A stretch of 34,915 bases of DNA from Vulcanimicrobiota bacterium (GTDB lineage: Bacteria; Vulcanimicrobiota; Vulcanimicrobiia; Vulcanimicrobiales; Vulcanimicrobiaceae). The DNA lies in NCBI GenBank assembly GCA_028287565.1, contig JAQBPK010000271.1, forward strand, positions 1 through 34,915. Reading direction: 5' to 3'. Position numbers and translations under genes: made by a program. This document shows positions 380 to 34,915 of this stretch, one piece after another. A model generated the notes under the pieces. The model was not told the DNA's origin and searched no databases. It saw only the letters and a list, made by a program, of their open reading frames with translations. Every line of letters starts with the position of its first letter. The first letter of the stretch is position 1.

Positions 380-2608
380 ATGCATGCATCGTTCGTCCGC
401 AAATCCTTCACGGCGATCGCCGCGCCGGCGGTCGCTGCGATGCTGTGCGCTGCGCTTCTGACCGCTGCGCCATCCGCCGCGCGCGCCGACGACGCGGTCG
501 CGGTGAACGCCGGCGTCGGCGTCGCGCGCATCGCGCTGATCCGCGGCCAAGTCGCGGTGCAACGCGGCGACTCCGCGACCGCGACCACCGCGGTGATCAA
601 CGCGCCGGTGCTCGGCGCGGACTACGTCACGACGGGCGACGACTCGCGCGCCGAGGTGCAGTTCGACGCCGCGTCCGCGGTGCGGCTCGGCGCGAACGTG
701 CAGATGCGCTTCACCCGCCTCGACGCGAACGACCGCGTGCTGCAGCTCGCCGAAGGCACGATCGATCTGCGCCTGCTGCGCGGCGTCGACGGCCGCTCGC
801 AGATCGACACGCCGTCGATCTCGATCCGACCGCGCACCAGCGGCAGCTACCGTGTCAGCGTCGACGGCAGCGGCGCGACGCGCGTGACGGTACGTTCCGG
901 AAGCGCGGACGTCATCACGCCGCAAGGCGCCGAAGTGCTGACCACCGGCACGACGCTGCTCGCGCGCGGCGCGGCAGCGAACCCGTCGGTGCAGCGCCTC
1001 GACGCGGTGGCGTACGACGACTTCGACCGCTTCAACGCCGACCGCGACGTGCCGGAGATGCGCGCGCTCGCGGATGCGAACGCGCCGCCCGGCGTCGCGG
1101 GCATCGACGACCTGAACGCGTACGGCCGCTGGGTGAGCGACACGGGCTACGGCAACGTGTGGACGCCGTCGTACGTCGCGCCGGGCTGGGCGCCGTACCG
1201 CGACGGCCGCTGGGCGTGGGAAGACACGTACGGCTGGACCTGGGTCGGCAACGAGCCGTGGGGCTGGGCGCCGTATCATTACGGCCGCTGGTACCACAGC
1301 CCGCGCTACGGCTGGTGCTGGTATCCTGCGCGCGCCGTCGTGCCGTGGAGCCCGGCGATCGTCAGCTTCATCACGTTCGGCGGCATCGGCTTCGGCTTCA
1401 ACTCGATCGGCTGGGTGCCGCTCGCGCCGTTCGAGCCGTTCAACCCATGGTGGGGCAACGGCAGCACCGTGGTCGTGAACAACACGTACGTCACGAACAA
1501 TTACGTCATCAACCACCGCCGCGACGACAACCGCGTGCTCGCGCGCCCGTTCTACCAGAACGCGCGCTTCGGCGGCGGAACGGAGATCTCGAAACAGCGC
1601 TTCCTGGAAGGACGCTTCGATCATCCGCGCACGGTTGCGCCGGGGCGCGTGCACGATTGGCAAATCGTCCGCGGCGCGGTCCCCGTCATACCGAGCGACG
1701 CGAACCTGCGCTTCAGCGACCGTCCCATCACGCGGCCGCTCGTGCTTCGCACGACGGCATTGCAGGGCACGTTCGCCGGCGATGCGGTCGCACCGCAGCG
1801 CACCCCGATCGCGCAGCAGCGCGCCGCGCTCACATCGGTGCCGCGGGCGGAACACCCGGCGGTGGTGCGCGACGTGCATCCCGAAGCGCAACCACCGGCG
1901 GCACAGCGCAACGCGATCACCGTCAACAACGGCGACGCGACGCCCAAGCGCATCATCGACCCGTGGGCGCGCTTCGGCGCGAACCGCGGCGCGCCGGCGG
2001 GCCATCCCGTCACCGTGATCGACGGCGCCGCCGCAACGAGCGCAGCAACGGGCACGGCGCACGCAAACGCCGCAACGGGCACGGCGCCCGGGAACGGCGC
2101 AACGGGCACGGCCGCTGCGGGCACCGGAACCAGCACGACAGCAGCGGGCGCGGGGCACCCGCAAGCGACGCGCAGCAACGGAACGACATCGCTGCCGCGC
2201 AGCACGCAAGACGGCGGCGTGTGGAAGCGGTTCGACAACTCGGCCGCAGGGCGCCCTGCCGCGGCGCGCGAGCCCGTCACCGTGCACGACGGTAGCGCGA
2301 CGCGCGAGCCTGTCCGAACGCCGCAGCAGCCGCATCGCACGTTCGACACGCCCGCGAACGCCGCGCCCGCGAACGCGGCACCCGCGCATGCGGCACCGGC
2401 CAACGCAGCGCCCGCGTACACCGCGCCGAGGCAGCAGCCGCAGTACTCCGTGCCCGTGTACGCGGCGCCGCGGCAGCAGCCGCAGTATTCCGCGCCCGCG
2501 CCGGCGGCGCAGCCGCACTACGAGCCGGCGCGCTCGGCGCCGGCGCACGCGAACCCGCCTCCGCAAGCGCAGCATGCCGAGCGGTCCACGGGCACGCCGC
2601 ACCGCTAA
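380..2608 (+). CDS. Secreted FecR-domain / DUF6600-type protein with low-complexity C-terminus
   Basis: This is a 742-aa protein. GGAGG at 367-371 sits 8 bases before the ATG and supports the start. Residues 1-36 form a signal peptide with a likely ARA|DD cleavage site. Residues about 45-200 resemble a FecR-type beta domain (IRGQVAVQRGD, then a region rich in RLG and VRSGSADV). Residues about 230-330 are a Trp/Tyr-rich region with YGRW, GWAPYRDGRWAW and PWGWAPYHYGRW, typical of DUF6600 proteins. From about residue 480 the chain is Ala/Pro/Gly-rich. It has two copies of a PVTVxDGxAT motif, repeated ATGTA and APANA units, and two QQPQYS repeats. It probably acts at the cell envelope; no enzymatic residues are recognised. 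The function of this domain pair is not known to me. Confidence 0.85.
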   Translation: MHASFVRKSFTAIAAPAVAAMLCAALLTAAPSAARADDAVAVNAGVGVARIALIRGQVAVQRGDSATATTAVINAPVLGADYVTTGDDSRAEVQFDAASAVRLGANVQMRFTRLDANDRVLQLAEGTIDLRLLRGVDGRSQIDTPSISIRPRTSGSYRVSVDGSGATRVTVRSGSADVITPQGAEVLTTGTTLLARGAAANPSVQRLDAVAYDDFDRFNADRDVPEMRALADANAPPGVAGIDDLNAYGRWVSDTGYGNVWTPSYVAPGWAPYRDGRWAWEDTYGWTWVGNEPWGWAPYHYGRWYHSPRYGWCWYPARAVVPWSPAIVSFITFGGIGFGFNSIGWVPLAPFEPFNPWWGNGSTVVVNNTYVTNNYVINHRRDDNRVLARPFYQNARFGGGTEISKQRFLEGRFDHPRTVAPGRVHDWQIVRGAVPVIPSDANLRFSDRPITRPLVLRTTALQGTFAGDAVAPQRTPIAQQRAALTSVPRAEHPAVVRDVHPEAQPPAAQRNAITVNNGDATPKRIIDPWARFGANRGAPAGHPVTVIDGAAATSAATGTAHANAATGTAPGNGATGTAAAGTGTSTTAAGAGHPQATRSNGTTSLPRSTQDGGVWKRFDNSAAGRPAAAREPVTVHDGSATREPVRTPQQPHRTFDTPANAAPANAAPAHAAPANAAPAYTAPRQQPQYSVPVYAAPRQQPQYSAPAPAAQPHYEPARSAPAHANPPPQAQHAERSTGTPHR

Positions 2609-2663
2609 GTCTGAACATTCGTTCGACGGGGGCGCGCGAGACGGCCGCGAAATCGACGCGGCC

Positions 2664-5129
2664 ATGGTCTCGCGTGTCGCTCCTCGGACGAACGCGTCTT
2701 TCGGCTCCCTCCTGCGGCGGTTCCGCATCGGAGCGGGGCTCTCTCGCGAAGCGCTCGCCGAGCAGGCGGGCATCAGCTCGGACGATATCGACGCGCTGGA
2801 GAGCAATGGCGTGGCGCCGCCCGCGGACGCGAGGCTCGCCGCGCTCATCGCCGCGCTCGCGCTGAGCGGCGACCGCCGCAGCGCGTTCGAAGCCGCCGCC
2901 GACCCGAACGGCACCGCGCCGCGCACCGCCGACGGCGAAGCCGAGCCCGCCTCCGCGCCGACCGGCCCAGCCGTGCTCGCGAGCTTCGTCGGCCGCGACG
3001 CCGAGCTGGCGGACATCACTGCCGCGCTGACGTCCTCGCGGCTCGTCACCATCTTCGGCCCGGGCGGCGTCGGCAAGACGCGCATCGCACAGCAGATCGC
3101 CGTCGACGCGGTCGCCGCGTATCCGGGCGGCGTCTGGGTGGCGGAGCTCGCGCCGTTCTCCGATCCCGAGCTTATCCCGGTCGCGATCGCGTCGTCGATG
3201 GGGATCGCCGATCCCGGCGGCGCGCGGCCGCTGCTCGAGACGGTCGTGTCCGCGCTGCGAACGAAGCGCGCGCTGCTAGTGCTCGACAACTGCGAGCACC
3301 TGCGGGCGGAGGTCGGCGCCGCCGCGACGGCGCTGCTCGCGGGCTGTCCCAAGCTGCGCATCCTCGCGACCAGCCGCGAGGGATTGGGGATCGAGGAAGA
3401 GCTGCTCTACCGCCTCCCGCCGCTCTCGGTGTGCGACGGCTCGGAGCTGCTCGGCGCAGGCGACGCGTTGCGCTACGGCGCGGTCGCGCTGTTCGTGGCG
3501 CGCGCGCAGGCCGCGCGGGCCGACTTCGTCCTCACCGACGGGATCGCGCCGGTCGTCAGCGAGATCTGCCGCAACCTCGACGGGATCGCGCTCGCGATCG
3601 AGCTCGCGGCCGCGCGGCTGTCGGTGCTCAGCGTCGAGCAGCTCGCGCAGCGGCTCGACGACCGCTTCCGCCTCCTCACCGGCGGCGGCAACGCGCTGCC
3701 GCGCCAGCAGACCCTGCGCGCGCTGATCGACTGGAGCTTCGACCTGCTGCAGCCGGTGGAGCGCACGGTGTTCGCGCGGCTCGCCGTGTTCCGCGGCGGG
3801 TGGACGGCTGACGCCGCCGCGGAGGTGTGCGGCGGCGCCGGAATCGACGTCGCCGCGGTCCTGGCGTCGCTGGTCGACAAGTCGCTCGTCGCCGCCGACG
3901 GTGACGACCGCTTCCGCTTCACCGCGACCACCGGCCAGTACGCGATGGAGAAGCTCCAGCGGTCCGGCGAGCACGACGCCGTCGCGGCGCGGTTCGCCGG
4001 CTGGGCGCTGCGCTTCGCCGAACGCGCCGACATGGCGTGGGAGAAGACGCCGGAGATGGACTGGCGGGCGTCGATTGAGTGCGAGCTCGACAACTTGCGC
4101 GCCGCGCTCGACTGGAGCCTCGGCCGAGGACGCGATCCGCTCGCCGGCGCCGGGATCGCGGCGGCGCTGAGCTTCTACTGGCGCACGGCGAAACGCGAAG
4201 GCCGGCGCTGGTTCGAGGCGGCCCTCGCCGCGCTCGAGGACGACGCCCCGCCGCCGCTGTGCGCGCGCATCGCGCTCGGCCTGAGCTGGACGCTCCCGGT
4301 CGGCCGTTCGAGCCTGGAAGCCGTTGAACGCGCGGTGCGTGCCTACCGCGAGATCGGCGACCGCCGCAGCCTGTCGATGGCGCTGCTGACGCTCAGCGGA
4401 AGCTTGCGCGACGAGCCCGGCTGGCTCGAGCGCGGCGAGGCCGCCGTCACCGAGGCGCTCGAGATCGCGCAGTCGACGTGCTTCTTCCGGCTCATCCCGA
4501 CGCTGCTCGCCGCGCTCGCCGAGTGCAAACGCCAGCGCCGCCGGTTCGACGAGGCGCGCGCGCTGCTCGAGCAGGCGCTGACGATGGCGCGCGAGGAGCG
4601 CAACCTGCTCGGCCTTTCGACCGCGCTGTCGCGGCTGGCCGAGGTGGAGTTCGATTCGGGCGAGTTCGCCGCGGCGCGGCGCTACGGCGCGGAGGCCACC
4701 GAGATCGACGGGCGGCGCGGCATCGCGAACGCGGTCTCCGCCGACCGCTGCGACCTGGCCGCGTACGCCATCGCGGACGGCGACCTCGACGACGCGTGCG
4801 CGCAAGCCCGCGAGGTGATCGCGATGAACGAGCGCGTCGACCAGCCGGTCCACCTCACCATCGCGATCGACCACCTCGCGGTCGTCGCGGCGCTGCGCGG
4901 CGACGTGCGGCGCGCGGCGCGCCTGATCGGCTACACCGACGCGATGTTCCGGCGGCTCGCGTACGCGCGCCAGCCGGTGGAGCAGCGCGGCGAGGAGCAG
5001 GCCCGTGCGATCCTGTCGGACCGGCTGTGCGAGGACGAGGCGGTGCAGCTTGCGGGCGAGGGTGAGTCGCTCGGCCGTGACGAGGCCGTCGCCGAAGCGC
5101 TCGCGGTCGCCGGCGCGGCCCGGATCTAA
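2664..5129 (+). CDS. XRE-type HTH / NB-ARC ATPase / TPR transcriptional regulator
   Basis: The protein has 821 aa. The ATG at 2664 is chosen because it leaves a full helix-turn-helix; the same frame is open further upstream but would run into the preceding gene. Residues about 13-50 (RFRIGAGLSREALAEQAGIS) are an XRE/Cro-like HTH. A STAND ATPase follows, with Walker A GPGGVGKT at 132-139 and Walker B LLVLDN at 204-209. Next come a GLPLA-like DGIALAIELAAARL block and an arginine-rich LIDWSFDLL region, typical of predicted ATPases. The C-terminal half is helical with TPR-like repeats. It is presumably a ligand-gated DNA-binding regulator in the cytoplasm. It converges on the small minus-strand gene with a 4-base overlap at the stops. 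Its ligand and targets are unknown. Confidence 0.9.
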   Translation: MVSRVAPRTNASFGSLLRRFRIGAGLSREALAEQAGISSDDIDALESNGVAPPADARLAALIAALALSGDRRSAFEAAADPNGTAPRTADGEAEPASAPTGPAVLASFVGRDAELADITAALTSSRLVTIFGPGGVGKTRIAQQIAVDAVAAYPGGVWVAELAPFSDPELIPVAIASSMGIADPGGARPLLETVVSALRTKRALLVLDNCEHLRAEVGAAATALLAGCPKLRILATSREGLGIEEELLYRLPPLSVCDGSELLGAGDALRYGAVALFVARAQAARADFVLTDGIAPVVSEICRNLDGIALAIELAAARLSVLSVEQLAQRLDDRFRLLTGGGNALPRQQTLRALIDWSFDLLQPVERTVFARLAVFRGGWTADAAAEVCGGAGIDVAAVLASLVDKSLVAADGDDRFRFTATTGQYAMEKLQRSGEHDAVAARFAGWALRFAERADMAWEKTPEMDWRASIECELDNLRAALDWSLGRGRDPLAGAGIAAALSFYWRTAKREGRRWFEAALAALEDDAPPPLCARIALGLSWTLPVGRSSLEAVERAVRAYREIGDRRSLSMALLTLSGSLRDEPGWLERGEAAVTEALEIAQSTCFFRLIPTLLAALAECKRQRRRFDEARALLEQALTMAREERNLLGLSTALSRLAEVEFDSGEFAAARRYGAEATEIDGRRGIANAVSADRCDLAAYAIADGDLDDACAQAREVIAMNERVDQPVHLTIAIDHLAVVAALRGDVRRAARLIGYTDAMFRRLAYARQPVEQRGEEQARAILSDRLCEDEAVQLAGEGESLGRDEAVAEALAVAGAARI

Positions 5130-5392
5130 GCGGTCTCGGGCTCCAGGTGCGGCTCGGCTTGCGCGTCGTTGACGAGCTTGAACATGCCGAGGTCGCTCCC
5201 CAGCGAGTCGTCGATGATGCCGAGCTCGTCGTGAAGGTACTGCTTCAGTTGCGCCAGGCTCGAGAAGTAGAAGCGCCGGCCCGACGCGGCGTGGTGCGCG
5301 GAGCCGCGCCAGCCGCATGCGCCGCGCTCGGTCGACGGCTCGCACCACAACCGGACCAGGAAGACGTGTTCTTTTCGTCTGAGCGGCGACAT
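5126..5392 (-). CDS. Small conserved-looking hypothetical protein (88 aa), SARP-promoter target
   Basis: This 88-aa protein has no signal peptide or membrane segment. The sequence reads HVFLVRLWCEPSTER, then WRGSAHHAASGRRFYFSSLAQLKQYL. This is a compact alpha/beta pattern, possibly WRGxVxHxxSGRRxYF-type small proteins found beside regulators, but I cannot name a function. No Shine-Dalgarno precedes the ATG at 5392. Instead a TAGACT -10 box lies six bases upstream of the ATG, which predicts a leaderless transcript starting at or next to the A of ATG. Two CTAGACG/GTAGACG heptamers lie 9 bases further up (see the promoter entry). It is divergent from the SARP gene at 5440 and converges on the XRE regulator. 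Confidence 0.7.
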   Translation of the reverse strand: MSPLRRKEHVFLVRLWCEPSTERGACGWRGSAHHAASGRRFYFSSLAQLKQYLHDELGIIDDSLGSDLGMFKLVNDAQAEPHLEPETA

Positions 5393-5398
5393 GGCGAA

Positions 5399-5431
5399 AG
5401 TCTAGGCGGCGCTCGTCTAGAAACCGTCTAC
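5399..5431 (-). promoter_or_regulatory. SARP-type promoter P1 (drives the 88-aa gene; abuts the SARP start)
   Basis: Read on the minus strand: GTAGACG (5431-5425), four bases, CTAGACG (5420-5414), nine bases, then TAGACT (5404-5399), a TANNNT -10 box. The two heptamers are direct repeats with an 11-bp period. Known SARP regulators bind direct heptamer repeats with 11-bp periodicity just upstream of the -10 box. The ATG of the minus gene follows six bases after the -10 box. The distal heptamer ends 8 bases before the SARP ATG at 5440, so a bound SARP could also affect its own gene. Confidence 0.75.
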
Positions 5432-5439
5432 CAACTGCC

Positions 5440-8400
5440 ATGACCGCGCCCATCCGGATCGCGCTCTTCGGCGCGCTGCGCATCGTCGTCGGCGGACAGC
5501 CGATCCGGCTCGCGGCGCCGCCGATGACGTTCCCCCTGCTGGCCTATCTGCTCGTGCACCGCGACCGCAACGTCGCGCGCGAGACGCTCGCCTTCACGCT
5601 GTGGCCCGAAGAGAGCGAGAGCGCCGCGAAGGCCAACCTGCGGCGCCACCTGCACTATCTCCAGCGGCTGCTCCCGCCGCCGCCGGACGGCGTGTCGTGG
5701 GTGATCGCGGACGCGCGCGCCGTCCGCTGGAACCCGAACGCACCCGCCGAGATCGACGTCGCGGAGTTCGAGCGGCGCATCGGCGAGGGCGAACGCTCCG
5801 AAGCGGTCGCTCTGTACGAAGGCGACCTGCTCGAAGAGCTCGACAGCGAGTGGATCCTCACCGAGCGCGAGCGCCTGCGCACGCTGCACGTCGACAACCT
5901 CTCGCAGCTCATCGCGGCGGCGCGCGCCGAGCGCCGCTTCGGCCGCGCGCTACAGTTCGCGCGCCGGCTGCTGCACCATGACCCCTGGCGCGAGGACGCC
6001 GTGCGCGAGGTGGTGTCGCTGCGCTTCGAGCTGGGCGACCGCGCCGGCGCGATCGCGGAGTTCGACGCGTTCGCCGAGCGGCTCGACGAAGAGATGGGCG
6101 CGGAGCCCATGCCGGAATCGCTCGCGCTGCGCGAGCTGATCTCGCACGACGAGGTGCCCGAGCGCGCGCAGCCGCGCGGCGAGCGGCGCGACATCGTGCC
6201 CTGGGCGGTGCTGCCGTTCGCCGGCCGCGACCGCGAGGTCGAGGAGATGCGCGACGCGTGGGACCGCGCAGTGCGCGGCGACGGCAGCTTGATGCTGATC
6301 GGCGGGGAGGCCGGGATCGGCAAGACGCGCCTGTGCGCCATCGTGCGGCAGATCGCGCTCGGCGACGGCGGCGTCGTGCTCGACGGCAGCACGTCGTTTC
6401 CGGAATCGACGCCGTACCAGCCGTTCGCCGAAGCGCTCGAGCCGCTCGTCGCGACGCTGGACATCTCGCGCTTCGAGCCCATCTTCTTGTCCGCGCTGGC
6501 GCTCGTGATCCCCCAGATTCGCGCGCTGCACCCCACGCTGCCGCCGCTGCCGGCCGTCGATCCCGGCCACGAGCAGACGCGCATGTACGAAGCGTTCTTC
6601 CGCGCCGGCGAGGTGGTGAGCGAGAAGCGCCCGCTGCTGCTGGTGCTCGAGGACATGCAGTGGGCGGGCGCGGCGACGATCGCGCTGCTCGAGTACGCCG
6701 CGCGGCGCGCCCCGACGCGCAAGCTGCTGATCGTCGCGTCGTACCGCGCGGAGGACGTGCCGCGCGATCACCCGCTGCGTGCCGTGCGCCGACGGCTCGA
6801 GCGCGAAGGCCGCGCGGGACATCTCGCGCTGGGCCCGCTCGCGCCGCGCGACGTCGAGACGATCCTCACGACGCTCGCCGGCAGCGGCGTCGACCCGGGC
6901 ACGCTGGGCGCCGAGCTGCACGCGGAGAGCGAAGGGAACCCGTTCTTCCTGGGCGAGCTGCTGCGCGGCGCCGTCGAGCAAGGCGCGGTGCGCGTCGACG
7001 ACGGGCGGCTCGCCATCGCGCGCGCCGCGTCGATCACGCCCGGGATCCGTGAGACGATCGCCGCGCGTCTGCAGCGCCTCTCGCCGGATGCGCTCGGCGC
7101 GGCGGAGTTCGCCGCGGTGATCGGGCGCGCGTTCAACGTCGAGCTCTTGAGCGAGGCCAGCGGCTGGACCGAGGCGCGCGCGATCGCGGCCGTCAGCGAG
7201 CTGCTCGACCGCCACATCGTGCGCGACGCGGGCGCGGCGAACGACTACACGTTCTCGCACAACCTCGTGCAGTCGACGATCTACGCGCTCTCGTCGCGGC
7301 GCGAGCTCGAGCGCCGCCACGGCCGCATCGCGATCGTGATGGAAGACCTCAACGCGGGCATGCTCGACGACATCGCGGCGCAGATCGCGCTGCACTTCGA
7401 GCGCGGCGGCGAGGGCGAGCGCGCCGCGCACTACTACATGCGCGCGGCGCGCCGCGCGCTCGCGCTGTTCGCGACGTACGAGACCGCGGAATATCTGGAG
7501 CGCGCGCTCACGCTGAGCACCGACTGGGCGCTGCGCGCCGACGCGCTGCTGCTGCAAGAGGAAGTCCACCGCCGTAACGGCGACCGCGACGCGCAGCGCG
7601 ACGACCTCGATCAGCTCGCGATCCTGCCCGCCGGAACGCTCGACCCCGACCGCGCGTGCGAGGTGCTGCGGCGGCGTATCGCGCTCGCGCACGTGACCGG
7701 CGAGCGCGAGGACGAAGAGCGTTTCATCGCCGAGCTGCACGACCGTGCCGAGCTGCTCGACCGCGCGTGGTGGGAAGCCGTCGCGCTGCAGCTCGAAGGC
7801 CAGCACCTGCTTGCGAGCGGGCGGCTCGACGAGGCGCGCACGGTGCTCGAGCGCGCGCTCACCATCCCCGCGGTGCGCGACGACCCCGCGCTCGCGACGG
7901 ACGTGTTCTGCAACCTCGCGACGGTCGCCGACCACCAAGCCGATTACGAGGTCGCGGAGCGCTATCTGCAGCGCGCGCTCGCGCTCGTGGAGACCCAGTC
8001 CGACGAGCTGCTGCGCTTCCGCGTGCTCAACCAGCGCTACGCGATCGCGCACGTGCACGAGAACTACGTGACGCTGCACGGGCTCGCGCGCGAGCTGCTG
8101 GAGCGCACCATCGCGGTCGGCGACCGGCGTGCGGAGATGCTCGCGCACCTGCGGCTCGCCAACGCCGCGCTGTTCGTGTTCGAGATCGCCGAGGCGTACG
8201 AGCAGTACGAACGCGCGGACGCGATGGCCGATCTGTTCGGCACGCCCAAAGAGCGCGCCAGCGTCGCTGCGTGCCGCGGCATCTTCGCGAGCGCGGTCGG
8301 CGACTTCGACACCGCGCGCGCGCACCTGATCGACGCGCGAGACATCGCGAGCGACGCGGCCGACCGTTTCGGCGAGCTGCTTGCGGACGTCAACATGGCG

Positions 8401-8949
8401 TACGTCGAGATCTTCGCCGAGGAACCGGAAGAGGCGCTCGCGCTCGCGGATGCGGCGGTCCCGGCCGCGCACGCGATCAACTCCGACCTGATCGAAGCGA
8501 GCGCGCTGTGCGCGCAGGGCGCGGCGCTGCGCCGGCTCGACCGTGACGACGCGCTCGCGTCGCTGGAGCGCGGGATCGCGCTGCAGCGCGAGCTGGGCCT
8601 GCATTCGAGCCTCGGCCAGGATCTCGCGGAGCTCGCGCTCGCGCAGCTCGCCGCGGGCGAGCTGGACGCGGCGTGCAAGACGGCGGTCGAGCTGAACGCG
8701 CTTGCCGACACGTCGTACCACGGCCTCACCCACCCGCACTTCATGCTGTGGACCGCCGCGCTGGTGCACGATACGCTCGGCGACCGGGAGCGCGCGGACG
8801 CGCTCTTTCGCGAGGCGTACGCGCTGTACGAGAACCGCCTCGGCCGCCTCGCCGAGCCCAAGTTGCGCGATTGCTTTTCGCGAATCTGGTTCAACCGCCG
8901 CATCGTCGCGGAGGGCGAACGCCGCAAGACGCCGGTAGACGTTTCGTAG
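5440..8949 (+). CDS. SARP-family regulator: winged helix-BTAD-AAA ATPase-TPR (AfsR-like, large)
   Basis: The protein has 1169 aa. Residues 1-95 are an OmpR/PhoB-like winged helix of the SARP type (IRIALFGALRIVVGG, then LLAYLLVHRDRNVARETLA and LWPEESESAAKANLRRHLHYL). Residues about 100-250 form a bacterial transcriptional activator domain (YEGDLLEELDSEWI; ARRLLHHDPWREDAVREV). An AAA ATPase follows with Walker A GEAGIGKT at 289-296 and Walker B LLLVLED at 399-405. About 500 residues of TPR-like helices complete it. Known SARPs activate by binding direct heptamer repeats next to the -10 box. Three such sites lie at both ends of this gene and 1.1 kb downstream, so local control is likely. No good Shine-Dalgarno is seen before the ATG. 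The stop codon lies inside promoter P2. Confidence 0.92.
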   Translation: MTAPIRIALFGALRIVVGGQPIRLAAPPMTFPLLAYLLVHRDRNVARETLAFTLWPEESESAAKANLRRHLHYLQRLLPPPPDGVSWVIADARAVRWNPNAPAEIDVAEFERRIGEGERSEAVALYEGDLLEELDSEWILTERERLRTLHVDNLSQLIAAARAERRFGRALQFARRLLHHDPWREDAVREVVSLRFELGDRAGAIAEFDAFAERLDEEMGAEPMPESLALRELISHDEVPERAQPRGERRDIVPWAVLPFAGRDREVEEMRDAWDRAVRGDGSLMLIGGEAGIGKTRLCAIVRQIALGDGGVVLDGSTSFPESTPYQPFAEALEPLVATLDISRFEPIFLSALALVIPQIRALHPTLPPLPAVDPGHEQTRMYEAFFRAGEVVSEKRPLLLVLEDMQWAGAATIALLEYAARRAPTRKLLIVASYRAEDVPRDHPLRAVRRRLEREGRAGHLALGPLAPRDVETILTTLAGSGVDPGTLGAELHAESEGNPFFLGELLRGAVEQGAVRVDDGRLAIARAASITPGIRETIAARLQRLSPDALGAAEFAAVIGRAFNVELLSEASGWTEARAIAAVSELLDRHIVRDAGAANDYTFSHNLVQSTIYALSSRRELERRHGRIAIVMEDLNAGMLDDIAAQIALHFERGGEGERAAHYYMRAARRALALFATYETAEYLERALTLSTDWALRADALLLQEEVHRRNGDRDAQRDDLDQLAILPAGTLDPDRACEVLRRRIALAHVTGEREDEERFIAELHDRAELLDRAWWEAVALQLEGQHLLASGRLDEARTVLERALTIPAVRDDPALATDVFCNLATVADHQADYEVAERYLQRALALVETQSDELLRFRVLNQRYAIAHVHENYVTLHGLARELLERTIAVGDRRAEMLAHLRLANAALFVFEIAEAYEQYERADAMADLFGTPKERASVAACRGIFASAVGDFDTARAHLIDARDIASDAADRFGELLADVNMAYVEIFAEEPEEALALADAAVPAAHAINSDLIEASALCAQGAALRRLDRDDALASLERGIALQRELGLHSSLGQDLAELALAQLAAGELDAACKTAVELNALADTSYHGLTHPHFMLWTAALVHDTLGDRERADALFREAYALYENRLGRLAEPKLRDCFSRIWFNRRIVAEGERRKTPVDVS

Positions 8950-8967
8950 ACGCCGCGTCCATAGAGT
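8935..8967 (+). promoter_or_regulatory. SARP-type promoter P2 (drives the 9024 lipoprotein gene)
   Basis: The order is GTAGACG (8935-8941), four bases, GTAGACG (8946-8952), nine bases, then TAGAGT (8962-8967), a TANNNT -10 box. Heptamer period and -10 spacing equal those of P1 and P3. The TAG stop of the SARP gene (8947-8949) is part of the second heptamer. A start site near 8974 would give a leader of about 50 bases with AGGAGGGA at about 9007-9014 before the ATG at 9024. Confidence 0.78.
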
Positions 8968-9023
8968 GACCCCTGAGCCGGGCGACACCGCCGGCAGCAT
9001 CGACTCAGGAGGGATTCTTCACT

Positions 9024-9947
9024 ATGGAAAACCATCGCCCGGACCGCCGGAAATCGTTGTTCACGCGGCTCGCGGCTCTCGGTCTCGCGTGCTCGTCGCT
9101 CGCGCTCGTGAACTGCTCGGGCGGCGGCGGAACGAGCCTGCCCCGCGCGCCCGTCGGCGGCGGAACCGGCGCCACGCCCGCGCCCACCGGCTCGCCGAGC
9201 GTCTCCCCCAGCTCGTCACCCAGCGCGGTGCCCAGCTCATCGCCGAGCGGCGTCCCGAGCACGGCCCCGTCGGGCGTCCCGACCCCCACTGCAACGCCCA
9301 CGTCCACGCCGACGTCGACCCCGACCGCGACGCCCACCGCGACGCCGACCAGCGTCCCGACGTCCGGTCCGACCAGCGGCCCCGGCTTCGCGTGCACCAC
9401 GCCGAGCGCGACGTTCGGTCCGAGCTACTACGCCTCGGTGATCGTCATCGGCAACGTGCCGGCGGGCGGCGGCGCGTTCGGTGCCGACAGCAGCAACAGT
9501 CTCTGGATCAAGGCGTCGTACTCGCCCGCGGCTCCCACGCCGACGCCGACCCCGACGTCCACGCCGTCCACCGCGCCCAGCGCGCCGCCGACCCGGCCGT
9601 TCTACGTCTATACCGGCACGTACCACATCAATTCGGCGAATGCGCCGACCGACGGCTGCTTGACGATGTTCACGACCACGGACGGTTCGAACATCAACGG
9701 AGCGACGTTCTCGAGCGAAGGCATCGGTTTCGTGAACCCGCCGCAGACGACGTACACCGAAAACCTCGGAGCGGTCGGACACATCACCGCCGTCGCGCTG
9801 AACGTCTCGCCCAACGCGCCGAACCAGAACGGAACGATCGCACTCGACAGCGGCGACAGCGGCACGATCTCGATCACCTCCGTGCAGACGGTGCAGCTCC
9901 CGCTCAGCCGCATCCGCGATCCGCGCGCGTTCGTCAAGAAGCACTGA
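9024..9947 (+). CDS. Secreted lipoprotein with Ser/Thr/Pro-rich stalk, function unknown
   Basis: The protein has 307 aa and a strong AGGAGGGA ribosome site 9 bases before the ATG. Residues 1-31 form a lipoprotein signal with lipobox LVNC and lipidated Cys31, followed by SGGGG. Residues about 50-120 are almost only Ser, Thr and Pro (repeats such as SPSSSP and TPTSTP), with a second short run near residues 172-190. That pattern suggests an extended, possibly wall-spanning stalk. The C-terminal domain (from about residue 195) is beta-rich with no motif I recognise. It has its own SARP-type promoter (P2) and a hairpin terminator downstream, so it is probably a single-gene transcript and a direct target of the upstream SARP. 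Confidence 0.78.
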   Translation: MENHRPDRRKSLFTRLAALGLACSSLALVNCSGGGGTSLPRAPVGGGTGATPAPTGSPSVSPSSSPSAVPSSSPSGVPSTAPSGVPTPTATPTSTPTSTPTATPTATPTSVPTSGPTSGPGFACTTPSATFGPSYYASVIVIGNVPAGGGAFGADSSNSLWIKASYSPAAPTPTPTPTSTPSTAPSAPPTRPFYVYTGTYHINSANAPTDGCLTMFTTTDGSNINGATFSSEGIGFVNPPQTTYTENLGAVGHITAVALNVSPNAPNQNGTIALDSGDSGTISITSVQTVQLPLSRIRDPRAFVKKH

Positions 9948-9990
9948 TCCGCGAGCACGCCACGGACGGCACTGCCATGGACGGCACAAT

Positions 9991-10029
9991 CGCGGTCGAC
10001 GACTCCGGTCGTCGGCCGCGTCTGTTTTA
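9991..10029 (+). terminator. Rho-independent terminator after the lipoprotein gene
   Basis: An inverted repeat at 9991-10002 and 10009-10020 (CGCGGTCGACGA against TCGTCGGCCGCG) forms a 12-bp stem with one G-U pair and a six-base loop. It is followed by TCTGTTTTA. It separates the lipoprotein transcript from promoter P3, whose first heptamer begins 27 bases later. Confidence 0.75.
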
Positions 10030-10055
10030 AGCGCGCATGTCAGTCGCCCGTCAGT

Positions 10056-10088
10056 CTAGACGGATTCTAGACGCGGTGCCGGTACGAT
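10056..10088 (+). promoter_or_regulatory. SARP-type promoter P3 (drives the TTHB210-like operon)
   Basis: The order is CTAGACG (10056-10062), four bases, CTAGACG (10067-10073), nine bases, then TACGAT (10083-10088), a TANNNT -10 box. The geometry equals P1 and P2. Just upstream, GTCAGTC occurs at 10039 and 10050, also 11 bp apart. That may be an auxiliary half-site pair or chance. A start near 10095 would leave a leader of about 63 bases before the ATG at 10158. Confidence 0.78.
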
Positions 10089-10901: not shown

Positions 10902-10911
10902 GACGCGTGTG

Positions 10912-11385
10912 ATGTACTGGTTCATCGTCGCACTGTACGCGCTGCACGTCATCTCGGCGATCGTGTGGTTCGGCGGCGGGCTCACCGGCGTGCTGATCAC
11001 CGGCCCCGCGCTGCAGCGCGCCAGCGCAGGGGCACGCGGGGAAGTCAGCTTCCACCTCGGCGCGCTCGCGCACAAAGTCTACCCGGTCGCGGGAACGATG
11101 ACGATCGTGCTCGGCGTCGTGCTGGCGCTGCTCGGCGGGCGCGTCTCGTCGCTCGAAGGGCTCGCCACGCCGTACGGGATCACCGTGATCGTCGCGCTGA
11201 TCCTCGCCGTGGGCGTGTGGACGTGGGGCGAGTTCGTGATCGGCCCGGCGATGCAGCGGATGCAGAAGGCGCAGCCCGCGGACCGTCCGTCGCTGCTGAG
11301 CCGCGCGCTGAAGTACGTCGCGCTCGAGCAGTTCGGGTTTCTCGCGGTGTTCGGCTGCATGGTCCTGATGCGCTTCGGGGTGTAG
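10912..11385 (+). CDS. Four-helix integral membrane protein (CopD/DUF2269-like)
   Basis: The protein is 157 aa from the ATG at 10912; GTG at 10909 would add one residue. Four hydrophobic helices are visible: about 3-27 (FIVALYALHVISAIVWFGGG), 57-80, 90-112 and 131-150. The ALHVISAIVWFGGG start resembles CopD- or DUF2269-type membrane proteins, where helix-borne His residues can bind metal or haem. Binding here is only inferred. It starts 10 bases after the TTHB210-like gene, so the two are probably co-transcribed from P3. Confidence 0.7.
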   Translation: MYWFIVALYALHVISAIVWFGGGLTGVLITGPALQRASAGARGEVSFHLGALAHKVYPVAGTMTIVLGVVLALLGGRVSSLEGLATPYGITVIVALILAVGVWTWGEFVIGPAMQRMQKAQPADRPSLLSRALKYVALEQFGFLAVFGCMVLMRFGV

Positions 11386-17046: not shown

Positions 17047-18052
17047 AACCGATCGCCTTCGGCGTCGTTTCCGGCGCCGGTCTGATGCCGACTACGGTGC
17101 GCTTGTAGATCGAGTTCGCGCTCAACGTTCCGAGCAGAACCGGCTTGCCGGCCTTCCAGTGACGGACCGGGAGAAAGAAACCGGACTCCTTGCCGCCCAA
17201 GACGCTGACGTAGTCACCGGCGAGGTTGTAGTCACCGGCTCCGCCGGCGCCGGTGATCCCTTCGAAGTGCGTGATGACCGCCGGGCGGTGATCGTAGACG
17301 AGCATCTTCCCGCTCGTCAGTCCGCGCACGTAGCCGTGCGTTCCGCGCGCGTCGGTGAAGCCGCCCGTGACGGCGACCTCGCCCGGATCGCTCCAGATCC
17401 CGTACGCCGTCGTGCTCACGGCGCGGGGGACGTCGATCTTCGCGAACGACCGGGTGGCGGAGTCGTACAGAAACGCGTGACCCCTCCCCGGGTAAGCGTT
17501 GCCGCGCGGGCCGTTGCCCACCGCGTCGGCGTTGCCGACGACTTTGAACGTGGCGTCGCCGAAGTTGCTGTGCGCGATCGCTTCGTTGCAGGTCTGCGGC
17601 GCGCAGAACGTGGGCGGCGGGTCGATCGTGACGTACCGTTGCGCCGCCGAATCGTAGAAGAACGCGTGGTTCGGAGCATCGCTGGAAAGCGCGGTCTTGT
17701 AACTGCCGACGATGCGATAGCCCGACCGTGTTCGCGCCGGCCCGTAGGCTGCGGTCGCCGCCGCGGACGGGACAACGATCGGCGTCCATACCGAGGTGTC
17801 TCGGTCGTACAGCGCGCCGATCGTCCCGCCGGCCGTCCCATTGCTCGCGATCTGCACCGTGTTGGTGATCAAGTTGCCGACGATGCCCGTCGGCCCCGAC
17901 AATCCGACGCCTTCGTACGTTCCGATGCTGGCCGGTGGGGCCAACGTCTTGAACTCGAGCGGCGGCGGGCTGAGAGCCGCGCCGAACGCTACCCCTCCCG
18001 CGGCGAGCAGGACCGCGGCGCCGACGGCGCCCTTGAGCAGCCGATCACCCAT
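17021..18052 (-). CDS. Secreted HAF-repeat-like protein
   Basis: The protein is 343 aa from the ATG at 18052, with AAGG about 10 bases upstream; the longer frame lacks a signal. MGDRLLKGAVGAAVLLAAGG starts a signal peptide or anchor. The body has repeating blocks of the form G(Y/F)xxVG...HAF(F/L)YDSAxxxxxxID: GYRIVGSYKT with HAFFYDSAAQRY, FKVVGNADA with HAFLYDSATRSF, then GFTDARGTHGYVRG with MLVYDHR. HAF-type extracellular repeats of this kind form beta-propeller-like surface proteins. There is no catalytic signature. The gene lies 61 bases downstream of another minus-strand secreted protein and may be co-transcribed with it. Confidence 0.68.
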   Translation of the reverse strand: MGDRLLKGAVGAAVLLAAGGVAFGAALSPPPLEFKTLAPPASIGTYEGVGLSGPTGIVGNLITNTVQIASNGTAGGTIGALYDRDTSVWTPIVVPSAAATAAYGPARTRSGYRIVGSYKTALSSDAPNHAFFYDSAAQRYVTIDPPPTFCAPQTCNEAIAHSNFGDATFKVVGNADAVGNGPRGNAYPGRGHAFLYDSATRSFAKIDVPRAVSTTAYGIWSDPGEVAVTGGFTDARGTHGYVRGLTSGKMLVYDHRPAVITHFEGITGAGGAGDYNLAGDYVSVLGGKESGFFLPVRHWKAGKPVLLGTLSANSIYKRTVVGIRPAPETTPKAIGFSVEVPGP

Positions 18053-24448: not shown

Positions 24449-26755
24449 CTAGCAGGGAAACGCCGTCGTCGTGCGCACATCTGCGGCGGCTTCGACCACG
24501 ATGGCCCCGCAGAGGTCGGTGCGGAATGCCGTTGCTCCGGTGCTCCGTAGGGTTGCGAGCGTCGTTGGTGCCGGGTGCCCGAAGAGATTGTGTCTGCCGA
24601 CGCTGATGACGGCGTATCGCGGACGAACGGCGGCGACGAAGCCGGGCGCGGACGAATAAGCCGATCCGTGGTGCCCCACCTTGAGAACGGCTGCGCGTAG
24701 ATCGGCGCCGCTGTCAAGAAGGCGCCGTTCAGCCTGAAACCCGGCGTCGCCCATGAATAGCATCCGAAACTCACGGTAGGCCAGCATGACGATCACGGAG
24801 TTCTCGTTGACGTCGTTCTTCCCGTCGGCGATGAGCGCGCCGCACGGCGACAATACCGAGAGCGTCACGCCGTCTTCGGTTGCCCAGCGGTCGCCGCACC
24901 GAGCGACGTGGACCGGAACATGATGCAACGCCGCCTCGCGCATCCCGTCGTTGAACGCGCGCCCGCCGTACTGTTGCCCGCTGTCCGCGATCGCATCGAC
25001 GCGCAGCGCGCGCACGACCGGTGCAAAGCCGCCGACGTGGTCGCCGTGCGGGTGTGAGTTCACGACCAGATCGACGCGGCGAACGCCTTCGCGCTTCAGA
25101 TAAGCGAGGACGACGCGCTCGCCGACGAGCTCTGCCGGTGAACGGCCGTCCGCGGCAGGGCCGCGTTCGAGGCGCCCGCCGCTGTCGATGAGGATGACGT
25201 GGCCACGGGGCGTGCGCACGACGATGCCGTCGCCTTGACCGACGTCGAGCATCGTGATCGTCAGTTTGCCGTCCGGCGGGCGCAGCGTCGTCGCCAGCAC
25301 GCCCGCGCTTGCGAGCGCGAGCAGCGCCACGGTGATGCGCGCGTTGCGGCGCAGGTACCACGCCGCAGCGATCGCGACCGTATCGTATACGACGATCGCA
25401 GCCGCGGGCGGCGGCGCGACCCATACGCGCGCGCCCGGCTGCGCTGCGATCGCACCGACCACGCGCAGAATCGCGTCGACGTCCCACGTCGTGAGCGTCG
25501 CGGCGGCTCGTCCGAGCACGGGGATCGGCGCCAGTGCGAGCGCAGCGATTCCGGCGATCATGCCTGCCGCGGTGGCGGGTACGACGATCGCGTTCGCGAC
25601 GACCGCGTACGGCGCGACGAGCCCGAACGTCGCGGCGCTCAGCGGCCACACGCCGATCTGCGTCGCGATCGTGAGCGCGAGCGCTTCGTGAACTTTTTTC
25701 GGCAGCTCCCACCGGTCGAGCGCGCGCTGCAGCGGGCCGGCGAACAAGAAGATCGCTCCGACGCACGAGAACGACAGCGCGAACGACACCGTCGTGACCG
25801 ACGCCGGCCATAGAGCAGCGACGACCAGCGCCGCCAGAGCGAGTGCGTTCCACGACATCGGCCGCGCGCCGAGCGCGCGCGCCAGCAGTGCGACGGACAC
25901 CATCACCGCCGCACGCTGTGACGGAAGGTGCGCACCGCTCAGCCACGCGTACGCCACGACGCACGGGATCGCCGACAGCGCTGCCGCAGCGCGCGGTATG
26001 CGCGCGAGCTTCAGTAGCTCCAGCACGAGCCACGCGATGACGCCGAGATGCAGTCCCGCCGTGACGAGCACGTGCACCGTGCCGGTCGCCTGAAAGTCGT
26101 CGCGCAGCTCGCGTGGCAGCGTGCCGCGCTCGCCCCACAATGCGCCCGCGACCACCGTTGCTTCGGGCTCGCTCAGCGCCGTGCGCAAGCGCGCTGAGAG
26201 GACGGCTCGCGCACGTGCGGCCCACATTCGCACGTCGCGTGGATCGGGCGGTGCGCGCGCGATGATGCGATCGCCGGCCAGCTGGCCCGCGAGCCCTTCG
26301 CCGAGCGCGATTGCGCGCCGCGACGGTTCGCCGGGATTGCGCGCTTCGTCGAACGGCACGAGCCGCCCGCGCACGACGACGCGCTCGCCCGGCACGATCG
26401 CGTCGTCGCGCACGTGCGCGCGCACGACGATTCCGCGTTCGAACGCGAACTCGAACGCCGCACCGCTCTCGTCCGCGCGCACGTCTCCGACGACCGTTCC
26501 GGCGAACCGCGCGGTGCGCGACTCCTCGGTCAGCATCGGCGGGTGACCGCGCCACGCCGCGACCACGAGCCCCGCGAGCGCGAATGCCGCCGCGAGCCGC
26601 GCACGGTCGTACGATACCGTACCGAGCGCACCAGTACAGACAAGCGCGGCAAGTCCGAGCGCTACAACGTACACGAGCGCGGCGAGTCCGTGCGCCTCGG
26701 CGGCGATCGCGCCCGCGAACGCGAGCGCGGGAAGAAGGAGCGGTGCGCGGGCCAC
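24449..26755 (-). CDS. comEC: DNA uptake channel ComEC/Rec2
   Basis: The protein is 768 aa from GTG at 26755, the first start after an in-frame stop. The N-terminal region has two to three helices and a DUF4131-like OB domain (FAGTVVGDVRADESG, then VVVRGRLVPF). The multi-helix competence domain runs about 190-480 (GALWGERGTLP; SGAHLPSQRAAVM). A metallo-beta-lactamase domain starts at about 510 (LTITMLDVGQGDGIVV), with HPHGDH at 568-573, MGDAG at about 668 and GHHGS at about 694. All three parts of a full ComEC are present, so it is likely functional in translocating single-stranded DNA. It diverges from the epimerase gene across 72 bases. comEA lies 8 kb away on the other strand. Confidence 0.95.
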   Translation of the reverse strand: MARAPLLLPALAFAGAIAAEAHGLAALVYVVALGLAALVCTGALGTVSYDRARLAAAFALAGLVVAAWRGHPPMLTEESRTARFAGTVVGDVRADESGAAFEFAFERGIVVRAHVRDDAIVPGERVVVRGRLVPFDEARNPGEPSRRAIALGEGLAGQLAGDRIIARAPPDPRDVRMWAARARAVLSARLRTALSEPEATVVAGALWGERGTLPRELRDDFQATGTVHVLVTAGLHLGVIAWLVLELLKLARIPRAAAALSAIPCVVAYAWLSGAHLPSQRAAVMVSVALLARALGARPMSWNALALAALVVAALWPASVTTVSFALSFSCVGAIFLFAGPLQRALDRWELPKKVHEALALTIATQIGVWPLSAATFGLVAPYAVVANAIVVPATAAGMIAGIAALALAPIPVLGRAAATLTTWDVDAILRVVGAIAAQPGARVWVAPPPAAAIVVYDTVAIAAAWYLRRNARITVALLALASAGVLATTLRPPDGKLTITMLDVGQGDGIVVRTPRGHVILIDSGGRLERGPAADGRSPAELVGERVVLAYLKREGVRRVDLVVNSHPHGDHVGGFAPVVRALRVDAIADSGQQYGGRAFNDGMREAALHHVPVHVARCGDRWATEDGVTLSVLSPCGALIADGKNDVNENSVIVMLAYREFRMLFMGDAGFQAERRLLDSGADLRAAVLKVGHHGSAYSSAPGFVAAVRPRYAVISVGRHNLFGHPAPTTLATLRSTGATAFRTDLCGAIVVEAAADVRTTTAFPC

Positions 26756-26827: not shown

Positions 26828-27772
26828 ATGCGTATCGTCGTCACCGGCGGAGCCGGATTCATTGGATCGCACATCGTCGACGCGTACGTCGCCGAGGGCC
26901 ACGAGGTCGTCGTGGTCGACAGCCTGTGGTCGCACGGCGGCGGGCGGCGCGAGAACATCCCCGACGGCGTCTCGTTCGTGCACATGGACGTGCGCGACGA
27001 CGGCATCCAGCGCATCTTCTCGGAGTTCAAGCCCGACATCGTGTCGCATCACGCCGCGCAGCACTCGGTTGCGATCGGCTCGCGCGATCCGAAGTACGAT
27101 GCAAACGTCAACGTCATCGGCATGCTCAACGTGCTCGAAGCGGCGGTGAAGGCCGGTTCGCGCAAGGTAATCTTCGCGTCGAGCGCCGCGACCTACGGTG
27201 ACGTCGACACGATGCCCGTCGACGAAACGTCTCCGCAGCGCCCGGTCTCACCGTACGGCATCACGAAGATGGTCACCGAGCACTACCTGCGCTTCTTCAA
27301 AGCCGATCACGGCCTCGACTACACCATCCTGCGCTACGGCAACGTCTACGGCCCGCGCCAGGACCCCAACGGCGAAGCCGGCGTCATCGCGATCTTCCTC
27401 GGCAAGTTCCTGCAGAAGCAGGGCGTGCGCATCGACTGGGACGGCGAGCAGACGCGCGACTACGTCTACGTCGGCGACGTCGTGAACGCCAACGTCGCCG
27501 CGCTCGGCAAAGGATCGGGCGAAACGTACGTCATCGGCGCCGGCAAGAAGACGTCGGTCAACGAGGTGTACCGCGCGATCGTCCAGGTGACGGGCTTCGA
27601 AGCACCGGTCACGCACGCACCGCGCCGCCCCGGCGACGCGCGCGAAGTGTTCTTCAACCCGGCCAAGGCAAAGCGCGAGCTCGGCTGGGAAGCGCAGGTC
27701 CCGCTGATCGAGGGCATGCGCAAGACGTACGAGTTCTTCAAAGAAAAGGAACGAACAGCCGCGGCATCCTGA
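26828..27772 (+). CDS. NAD-dependent epimerase (UDP-glucose 4-epimerase-like, extended SDR)
   Basis: The protein has 314 aa. The nucleotide motif TGGAGFIGSH is at 6-15, Ser/Ser/Ala with catalytic Tyr143 and Lys147 in SPYGITK at 141-147, and YGNVYGPRQ follows. It ends with a TRDYVYVGDVV block and RRPGDAREVFFNPAKAKREL, typical of GalE-like epimerases. It probably interconverts UDP-sugars for envelope polysaccharide in the cytoplasm; the exact substrate cannot be read. The ribosome site is weak. It converges on the cupin gene with a 123-base gap. Confidence 0.92.
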   Translation: MRIVVTGGAGFIGSHIVDAYVAEGHEVVVVDSLWSHGGGRRENIPDGVSFVHMDVRDDGIQRIFSEFKPDIVSHHAAQHSVAIGSRDPKYDANVNVIGMLNVLEAAVKAGSRKVIFASSAATYGDVDTMPVDETSPQRPVSPYGITKMVTEHYLRFFKADHGLDYTILRYGNVYGPRQDPNGEAGVIAIFLGKFLQKQGVRIDWDGEQTRDYVYVGDVVNANVAALGKGSGETYVIGAGKKTSVNEVYRAIVQVTGFEAPVTHAPRRPGDAREVFFNPAKAKRELGWEAQVPLIEGMRKTYEFFKEKERTAAAS

Positions 27773-34623: not shown

Positions 34624-34915
34624 GTGAAACGTCTGCTTCCCGCGACCGGCATGAAGCGTCTCCTAGGCTCGACCGGCGTAAAACGACTGATCCCGTTCAT
34701 CGCGGCCGGCGCCATCGGGGCCGCGGCCCTGCTGCGCCCCGTCACGCCGCCGTCAGCCAGCGCCGGCGTAGGCGGGTGGTCGTCCGCGCCGCCGGACCCG
34801 CACGGCGGCCGAGCGCGCCGGACGGCGGCGCCGCAGGCCATGGTGTACGTGGCCGGCGACGTCGTCCGCCCGGGCGTCTACCCGGTGCGGCCCGAGGCGC
34901 GCACGCGCGACGCGC
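34624..34915 (+). CDS. comEA: Competence protein ComEA-like, N-terminal part (partial)
   Basis: From GTG 34624 the frame stays open to the window edge (97 codons). The first residues form three near-identical 9-residue units, VKRLLPATG, MKRLLGSTG and VKRLIPF, so GTG 34624 and ATG 34651 are both possible starts. A membrane anchor follows (PFIAAGAIGAAALL), then a Pro/Ala-rich linker, then MVYVAGDVVRPGVYPVRPEA from about residue 73. That is the beginning of the SLBB domain seen in ComEA. The helix-hairpin-helix DNA-binding part lies outside the window. ComEA binds incoming DNA and feeds ComEC, which is also in this window. Confidence 0.78.
   Translation, partial: MKRLLPATGMKRLLGSTGVKRLIPFIAAGAIGAAALLRPVTPPSASAGVGGWSSAPPDPHGGRARRTAAPQAMVYVAGDVVRPGVYPVRPEARTRDA

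Follow-up and report, generated by a model that had tools for sequence, protein, structure and literature searches.

The stretch of DNA analysed here (the window) comprises 34,915 nucleotides of a Vulcanimicrobiota bacterium and is contig C271 (JAQBPK010000271.1) of a 4.8-Mb draft genome. The subject of this report is a gene for a large SARP-type regulator in this window, three candidate promoters of one layout beside it, and the divergently transcribed gene of an 88-amino-acid (aa) protein. The SARP gene (5440..8949, plus strand) encodes 1169 aa, with an N-terminal OmpR-type DNA-binding domain followed by a BTAD domain and a C-terminal ATPase and TPR part, as is characteristic of large, AfsR-like SARPs (Pfam: PF03704 (BTAD) 3.4e-14, AAA_16 8.1e-25, TPR_12 4.6e-8). 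In phmmer searches, residues 1-260 of this protein have matches to EmbR and AfsR. The structure model of these residues is confident (pLDDT 93), and its top PDB matches in Foldseek are AfsR in an initiation complex and EmbR (E 1e-11). The core of the recognition helix, NLRRHLHYL (residues 66-74; 5635..5661, plus strand), aligns with AfsR 85-93 and lies in a predicted helix of residues 60-77.

The three sites P1, P2 and P3 consist of two TAGACG-type heptamers and a -10 box. P1 (5399..5431, minus strand; GTAGACG-gttt-CTAGACG-N9-TAGACT) is situated upstream of the 88-aa gene (5126..5392, minus strand) and occupies 33 of the 47 bp between the divergent start codons of this gene and the SARP gene. 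The ATG follows the -10 box by exactly 6 nt, in agreement with the start-site distance of the original prediction, and P1 probably drives the 88-aa gene as a leaderless mRNA. P2 (8935..8967, plus strand; GTAGACG-tttc-GTAGACG-N9-TAGAGT) overlaps the SARP stop codon; here the ATG is found 56 nt past the -10, with AGGAGG ahead of it. The P2 target is a 307-aa Ser/Thr/Pro-rich protein (9024..9947, plus strand) without a Pfam family, a probable lipoprotein judging from its N-terminal signal-like stretch and Cys. P3 (10056..10088, plus strand; CTAGACG-gatt-CTAGACG-N9-TACGAT) precedes the gene of a 247-aa TTHB210-like protein (PF18197; 10158..10901, plus strand; the listed open reading frame (ORF) begins at TTG 10113). 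A 158-aa DUF4149 protein (Pfam; 10909..11385, plus strand) is encoded 7 bp 3' of this gene and probably belongs to the same operon.

The full pattern, [C/G]TAGACG-N4-[C/G]TAGACG-N9-TANNNT, was searched for in the window allowing up to three mismatches. There are exactly three matches, P1, P2 and P3, each with zero mismatches, against a mean of 0.18 over 100 dinucleotide shuffles, none of which reaches three. The bare repeat TAGACG-N5-TAGACG (up to two mismatches) adds a single 2-mismatch match at 27217-27233, which is background (shuffle mean 2.29), and boxes of any spelling ending in ACG (ACG boxes, with N9 or N10) are confined to P1-P3 in the whole window. Lone TAGACG words occur at 17295, 18121, 24120 and 33226 on the plus strand and at 34880, 27468, 27348, 10477 and 9610 on the minus strand. 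The original prediction of three sites with identical layout, 11-bp period and fixed distance to the -10 is thus exact in position and without a mismatch. Its statement that the window has no other paired copy holds in the full-pattern, bare-repeat and any-spelling searches, because the extra bare-repeat match is background and the ACG-box search returns P1-P3 only. The layout also supports the classification as SARP-type promoters: heptamer repeats of 11-bp period stand beside the -10 box, and the distance from the end of the 3' heptamer to the -10 is fixed at 9 bp.

Box spelling and recognition helix at related SARP loci

A search with the window SARP alone as query found no relative. Alignment-based searching provided 80 named SARP-relative loci, mostly of other groups. 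From the class (Vulcanimicrobiia, 117 genomes), 99 SARP homologue loci were obtained in 51 of 52 matching genomes; no more than 6 candidates per genome were scored, so this inventory of SARPs is incomplete, and rows lacking the N-terminal part were left out. The alignment contains 98 of the class SARPs. L109 (G, C and L numbers denote genomes, contigs and loci) has a frame problem and stands outside it, and its gene is counted as flank, as are those portions that a few truncated SARPs lack.

A de novo scan without a preset word recorded 6-mer repeats at seven periods with TANNNT 8-11 bp later, overlapping registers of one site being counted more than once. At the 99 class loci, period 11 occurs 68 times in 582 kb of flanks versus twice in 321 kb inside SARP genes, and the other six periods 0-10 times in flanks. 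The heptamers vary between SARPs (TAGACG, GAGACG, CGGACG, GGCACG, GGAACG), yet they end in ACG. With the pattern NNNN-core-N4-NNNN-core-N9-TANNNT (at least three of four N matching), the ACG core is present 43 times in flanks and not at all inside SARP genes. Among the 63 other triplet cores 56 give none, six give 1-2 and CGC gives 7, the latter count being compatible with ACG boxes read in a register shifted by one base. The boxes do not share the Streptomyces-type heptamer spelling: the cores ATC (AfsR) and AAG (PimR) have 0 occurrences in flanks and 0 inside. ACG boxes at periods 9, 10, 12 and 13 are absent; the spacer to the -10 is N9 in 43 cases and N10 in 15, and spacers of 6, 7, 8, 11 and 12 give 0-1. 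At the 80 named loci the de novo scan finds period 11 37 times versus 7-19 times for the other six periods, an excess that is partly due to AT-rich repeats without ACG. Here, ACG-ending words occur at loci with titles of Acetothermia, Calditrichota, Trueperaceae, Fraserbacteria and Chloroflexi.

At least one box accompanies 45 of the 98 aligned SARPs (56 boxes in total), namely 41 of the 71 that have Arg-Arg at AfsR positions 87/88 versus 4 of the 27 that do not. The latter 27 (e.g. L116, L117, L121), many with a KLR[AS]T helix, seldom have ACG boxes; their own boxes, if any, may differ in spelling or spacing.

Mutual information between box bases and about 100 variable columns among the first 110 residues (AfsR numbering; the z-scores ignore kinship) places the best partners in the recognition helix. 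For base 4 the strongest covariation is with residue 89 (z 12.3), then with residue 85 (z 10.4); for bases 2 and 3 it is with residue 92 (z 5.9 and 6.0). The AfsR complex has R92 in contact with the T at -38 and T88 in contact with the G opposite -36 (PMC10936776). These are heptamer bases 2 and 4 if transcription starts 7 bp past the -10, therefore covariation and structure agree on the places. Proximal boxes could be tallied for 36 of 101 SARPs (the 98 aligned ones and three added from G010, G020 and G102). H89 is accompanied by G4 in 21/21, and Y89 by C4 in 5/6 with a mixed T/C in the remaining one. Y92 goes with A3 in combination with H89 (8/8) and with G3 in combination with N89 (3/3). 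SARPs of the same genus differ in box and in helix (TAGACG, GAGACG, CGGACG, GGGACG). Residue 91 (His/Asn) alone does not set T or G at base 2, since G102, with an HLNY helix, has TAGACG. As sequence statistics show, many SARPs of this family appear to have a box of their own beside the gene, with an ACG end and with variable bases that follow residue 89 (base 4) and residue 92 (base 3).

The same correspondence is present genome by genome in the 117 class genomes (p-values treat genomes as independent). TAGACG boxes are found in 7 genomes and HLHY helices in 7, with 6 in common (p 1.6e-8). GAGACG boxes (9 genomes) and HLNY helices (7) have 5 in common (p 1.5e-5), GGCACG boxes (5) and ELRRYxY helices (12) have 4 (p 3e-4), and mismatched pairings of box and helix yield p-values of 0.056 to 1. 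Reversed-pattern controls give 0 for TAGACG and GAGACG boxes and 1 for GGCACG. Conservation beside SARP orthologues, which had been proposed as a check, is observed: TAGACG boxes share a contig with NLRRHLHY SARPs in G020, G030, G068 and G069, and 6 of 7 TAGACG-box genomes carry an HLHY helix. G066 is an exception with an HLHY helix and no box; this genome is 68% complete, and its HLHY contig is not among the fetched loci. G030 has the same box with identical spacers at C147:60 (contig edge) and C186:2816 (inside a contig). The probable cause is an overlap of contig ends or the duplication of a cassette, and the five sites counted in G030 may thus be four. GAGACG boxes lie near an HLNY SARP in G001, G006, G007 and G010, and on a different contig from the HLNY SARP in the genome of the window.

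The HLHY SARP of G020 (L173, G020:C9) has only 257 aa, hence the match of helix and box is not tied to the large SARP form. Both L173 (TAGACG box) and L181 (G010:C40, 262 aa; GAGACG box) are too short for the ATPase/TPR part, and the match thus occurs without a sensor part.

The small-protein family and other predicted targets

Homologues of the 88-aa protein measure 58-88 aa in 59 aligned members and share the consensus FxVRxWxE...WRGSVxHVxSGxRxYF...DFI. The structure model has three strands followed by one helix. Pfam and NCBIfam searches with the 59 proteins returned only single-member chance matches, and Foldseek of the model against PDB nothing below E 0.001. The small gene is present at 54 of the 99 class SARP loci. 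Among the 80 named loci it is found at seven with Chloroflexi-group titles, Aquidulcis being placed in the Chloroflexi here, and additionally at an Eremiobacter locus. It accompanies SARPs with different boxes and occurs in divergent, upstream and downstream positions.

An ACG box is located within 150 bp upstream in 30 of 58 class copies of the small gene (reversed and shuffled controls 0). The start codon follows the -10 by 5-8 nt in 25 of these 30 (controls 0), which would place the 5' end of the mRNA on or close to the start codon. Each of the two copies in the genome of the window has a BTAD match no more than 3 kb away, and in 11 genomes of the same genus 12 of 15 copies have one within 6 kb. 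Five of the 11 genomes have BTAD matches and no small gene. The original prediction had missed both the differently spelled boxes fitting other helices and the 88-aa gene as a recurrent SARP neighbour.

The genome of the window possesses nine exact TAGACG-N5-TAGACG pairs (reversed control 1), five of them with an exact N9-TANNNT, one with N10-TANNNT (C335) and one with N9-GAGACT (C325). A matching -10 is absent behind the pairs on C340 and C387, which may have arisen by chance. Outside the window the repeats precede a 78-aa ORF (C145), an FAD oxidoreductase (C325, -10 GAGACT), the gene of a TonB-dependent receptor with spacer 10 (C335) and, on C398, an ORF that is truncated where the contig ends. 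Because six of the nine repeats lie on other contigs, the "local regulon" of the original prediction is too narrow. The SARP at 5440 is likely the activator at P1-P3, as had been proposed for the three targets, and it is their confinement to the locus that does not stand.

The target of the G020 box and the P3 product are both TTHB210-like (50% identity); the two genomes belong to different genera, and each gene stands beside an HLHY SARP. Proteins of 333-346 aa with signal-like N-termini are encoded at L076 (985-2022), L073 (6529-7527) and L174 (from 887), with a leaderless start directly behind a TAGACG box. The L076 and L073 products are 37% identical, and the two of the three proteins that were scanned have no Pfam family. 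At L079 (1014-2063) a TAGACG box is followed by the gene of a Vgb_lyase-family protein, a propeller resembling virginiamycin B lyase, whose N-terminus is signal-like. In the genus of the window, G000 (L170 462-1819, G000:C397) has a GAGACG box followed by a DUF1059 gene and a gene for an Rv2258c-like methyltransferase (Pfam); likewise at L066 a GAGACG box stands ahead of DUF1059 and Rv2258c-like methyltransferase genes. Behind further GAGACG boxes (frames judged by eye) the small ORF is found again in G001, G004, G007 and G010, and the methyltransferase in G001 and G006.

Elsewhere in the window, a 913-aa regulator with HTH_31, AAA/NB-ARC and TPR (2388-5129) is convergent with the 88-aa gene, the ends overlapping by 4 bp. 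A FecR/DUF6600 protein (380-2608) and a ComEC-like competence protein (24449-26755, minus strand) are also encoded. PADLOC reports nothing for the small protein, the lipoprotein candidate or the TTHB210-like protein; its matches are weak and concern the SARP (TPR) and the 913-aa regulator (mad8, HTH, capH). Pfam searches on 19 different window ORFs revealed no biosynthetic core enzyme, and 11 of the 19 match no family.

Known regulators and rival explanations

The closest known system is AfsR-afsS of Streptomyces coelicolor (PDB 8hvr, 8k60). AfsR likewise combines a SARP domain with an ATPase and TPR, and its promoter has two repeats of 11-bp period near the -10. The afsS product has 63 aa (PMC6988585), and thus a large SARP with a small-protein target has a precedent; the comparison of the two small proteins covers size and status as a target. 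In each AfsR repeat it is the first 8 bp that are contacted (PMC10936776), which gives the same distance to the -10 as here: the 9 bp of the present boxes are counted from the heptamer end, which corresponds to the end of these 8 contacted bp, and the distance given for Streptomyces is 8 bp. The core differs, with ...ACG here versus CGTT(T/C)ATCGNN repeats of AfsR (PMC10972967), and the window helix has R and Y at the places of the base-contacting T88 and R92 of AfsR. In contrast to AfsR, many differently spelled boxes are present within one bacterial class. PimR (SARP-LAL) also binds heptamers with 4-bp spacers, and its CGGCAAG resembles the CGGCACG class (PMC5930380). According to the same source, the main PimR operator has three repeats without -35 overlap, and PimR activates pimM in an antifungal cluster; here the repeats are two in number and end 9-10 bp before the -10, and the scanned ORFs show no biosynthetic cluster.

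EmbR of Mycobacterium tuberculosis (PDB 2fez/2ff4), the best sequence match, shares the DNA-binding domain and BTAD fold. The match ends at EmbR residue 257 of 388, where the window SARP continues with AAA/TPR. EmbR carries an FHA domain after its DNA-binding and BTAD part. PhoB/OmpR proteins share the winged helix-turn-helix (a weak fold match); unlike them, the window SARP has no receiver domain by Pfam and instead BTAD, AAA and TPR, and the boxes adjoin SARP genes.

OmpR/PhoB response regulators also use direct repeats of 11 bp close to the -10, and the weaker fold matches of the SARP model include the effector domain of PhoB (E 5.3e-3). A regulator of this type could bind the boxes with the SARP as a bystander, which we consider very improbable: the boxes repeatedly overlap or adjoin SARP genes, and their spelling tracks the recognition helix of the SARP itself, both at the single locus and from genome to genome. 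This tracking of words that vary between SARPs makes ordinary sigma-70 or extracytoplasmic function (ECF) promoters with TAGACG as a -35-like hexamer more improbable still. TAGACG agrees with the -35 consensus TTGACA at four of six positions and a -10 is present, yet both copies are kept at 11-bp period and their gaps to the -10 are 20 and 9 bp, the usual gap being 16-18 bp. Since both gaps are wrong, an ordinary -35 was rejected.

It seems unlikely that the match of box and helix merely reflects shared ancestry of SARPs and promoters, with no rule linking bases to residues. Of about 100 variable columns, those at the top belong to the helix and coincide with or adjoin contact positions of AfsR, and SARPs of one genus differ in box as they do in helix. 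The tree built without helix columns leaves room for common descent: residue 89 changes six times and base 4 five times, and independent contrasts number two with support and five over all branches, too few to reach significance, though none is opposing. This scarcity of contrasts belongs to several observations that weigh against a SARP-specific box code with the small gene as a target. The loci used for counting the ACG core are also those that had first drawn attention to it, hence that count is descriptive. Under the rule used, 53 of 98 SARPs have no box, including 30 of 71 with the Arg-Arg helix. Base 1 has its weak top column at residue 97 (z 4.6), at the helix end and with no explaining contact, and N89 goes with A4 three times, with G4 twice and with a mixed base once. 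Genome-wide, G102 carries a TAGACG box and an HLNY helix, G106 has a GGCACG box without an ELRRYxY helix, 4 of 9 GAGACG genomes have no HLNY, and 8 of 12 ELRRYxY genomes have no exact GGCACG box. The conservation check in its simple form gives an opposing result: the exact TAGACG pattern is present in 0 of the 10 other same-genus genomes searched, where HLHY was not found either. As regards the small gene, 3 of the 15 same-genus copies have no BTAD match on their contig, and of the seven outside the phylum only L183 has an upstream ACG box.

That the small protein is not a partner of the SARP and instead an unrelated passenger or the SARP's main output is a serious possibility, short of an even chance. 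Its family has no known function, and it is missing at 45 of 99 SARP loci as well as from the five BTAD-bearing genomes of the genus mentioned above. A passenger would, on the other hand, hardly be expected to recur beside SARPs with different boxes, in varied positions and with leaderless starts, and seven of the 80 named loci, by title outside the phylum, also have it in the fetched stretch around a SARP relative, though with an ACG box in one case only. On the analogy of AfsS and AfsR, the 88-aa protein would be a dedicated partner of the SARP, most likely either a feedback modulator or a first effector.

Proposed mechanism and implications

We hold with considerable confidence that P1-P3 are AfsR-type SARP promoters used by the SARP at 5440, with box spelling following the helix and the small gene as a frequent target. 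By analogy with AfsR, the ATPase/TPR part would repress the SARP until a signal releases it. Two SARP domains would then bind side by side on both heptamers, at -39 to -33 and -28 to -22 (numbering that assumes an RNA start 7 bp past the -10), and give sigma region 4 a docking place where the -35 is missing, with transcription starting from the TANNNT box. By the box statistics, a frequent and often leaderless target is a gene of 58-88 aa, here the 88-aa gene. Other predicted targets are exported or envelope proteins, i.e. the lipoprotein candidate, the TTHB210-like operon and, elsewhere in the genome, the TonB-dependent receptor. Because P1 fills most of the short divergent gap, SARP bound there may also limit its own transcription.

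The promoter layout is already known. The ACG core, the diversified self-dedicated boxes, the helix-to-base rule and the small family are new as judged by titles and abstract beginnings; at that level, searches on SARPs, the phylum and leaderless transcription brought up no description of such boxes or code, and a search on TTHB210 gave one paper, which is unrelated.

Many such SARPs seem to have their own DNA box, often before the gene of a small partner, and the rule relating protein and box seems partly readable from genomes. In a broader proposal, for and against which we see equal chances, the large SARPs of Vulcanimicrobiota, together perhaps with those of Chloroflexota and other phyla, form a self-addressed family, each using an adjoining promoter, specified by residues 85, 89 and 92, to make a leaderless small partner. 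If true, this would represent a naturally diversified, readable SARP recognition code and a new module of regulator and small protein. Since dozens of SARPs adjoin differently spelled boxes, the specificity of protein for DNA would be readable across them, and genome sequence could serve to call regulons in a phylum from which no isolate had been reported before 2022 (PMC9758169). A family of small proteins linked to a regulator, with no matching Pfam or NCBIfam model, comes into view as well, as do probable leaderless promoters with a predicted start site.

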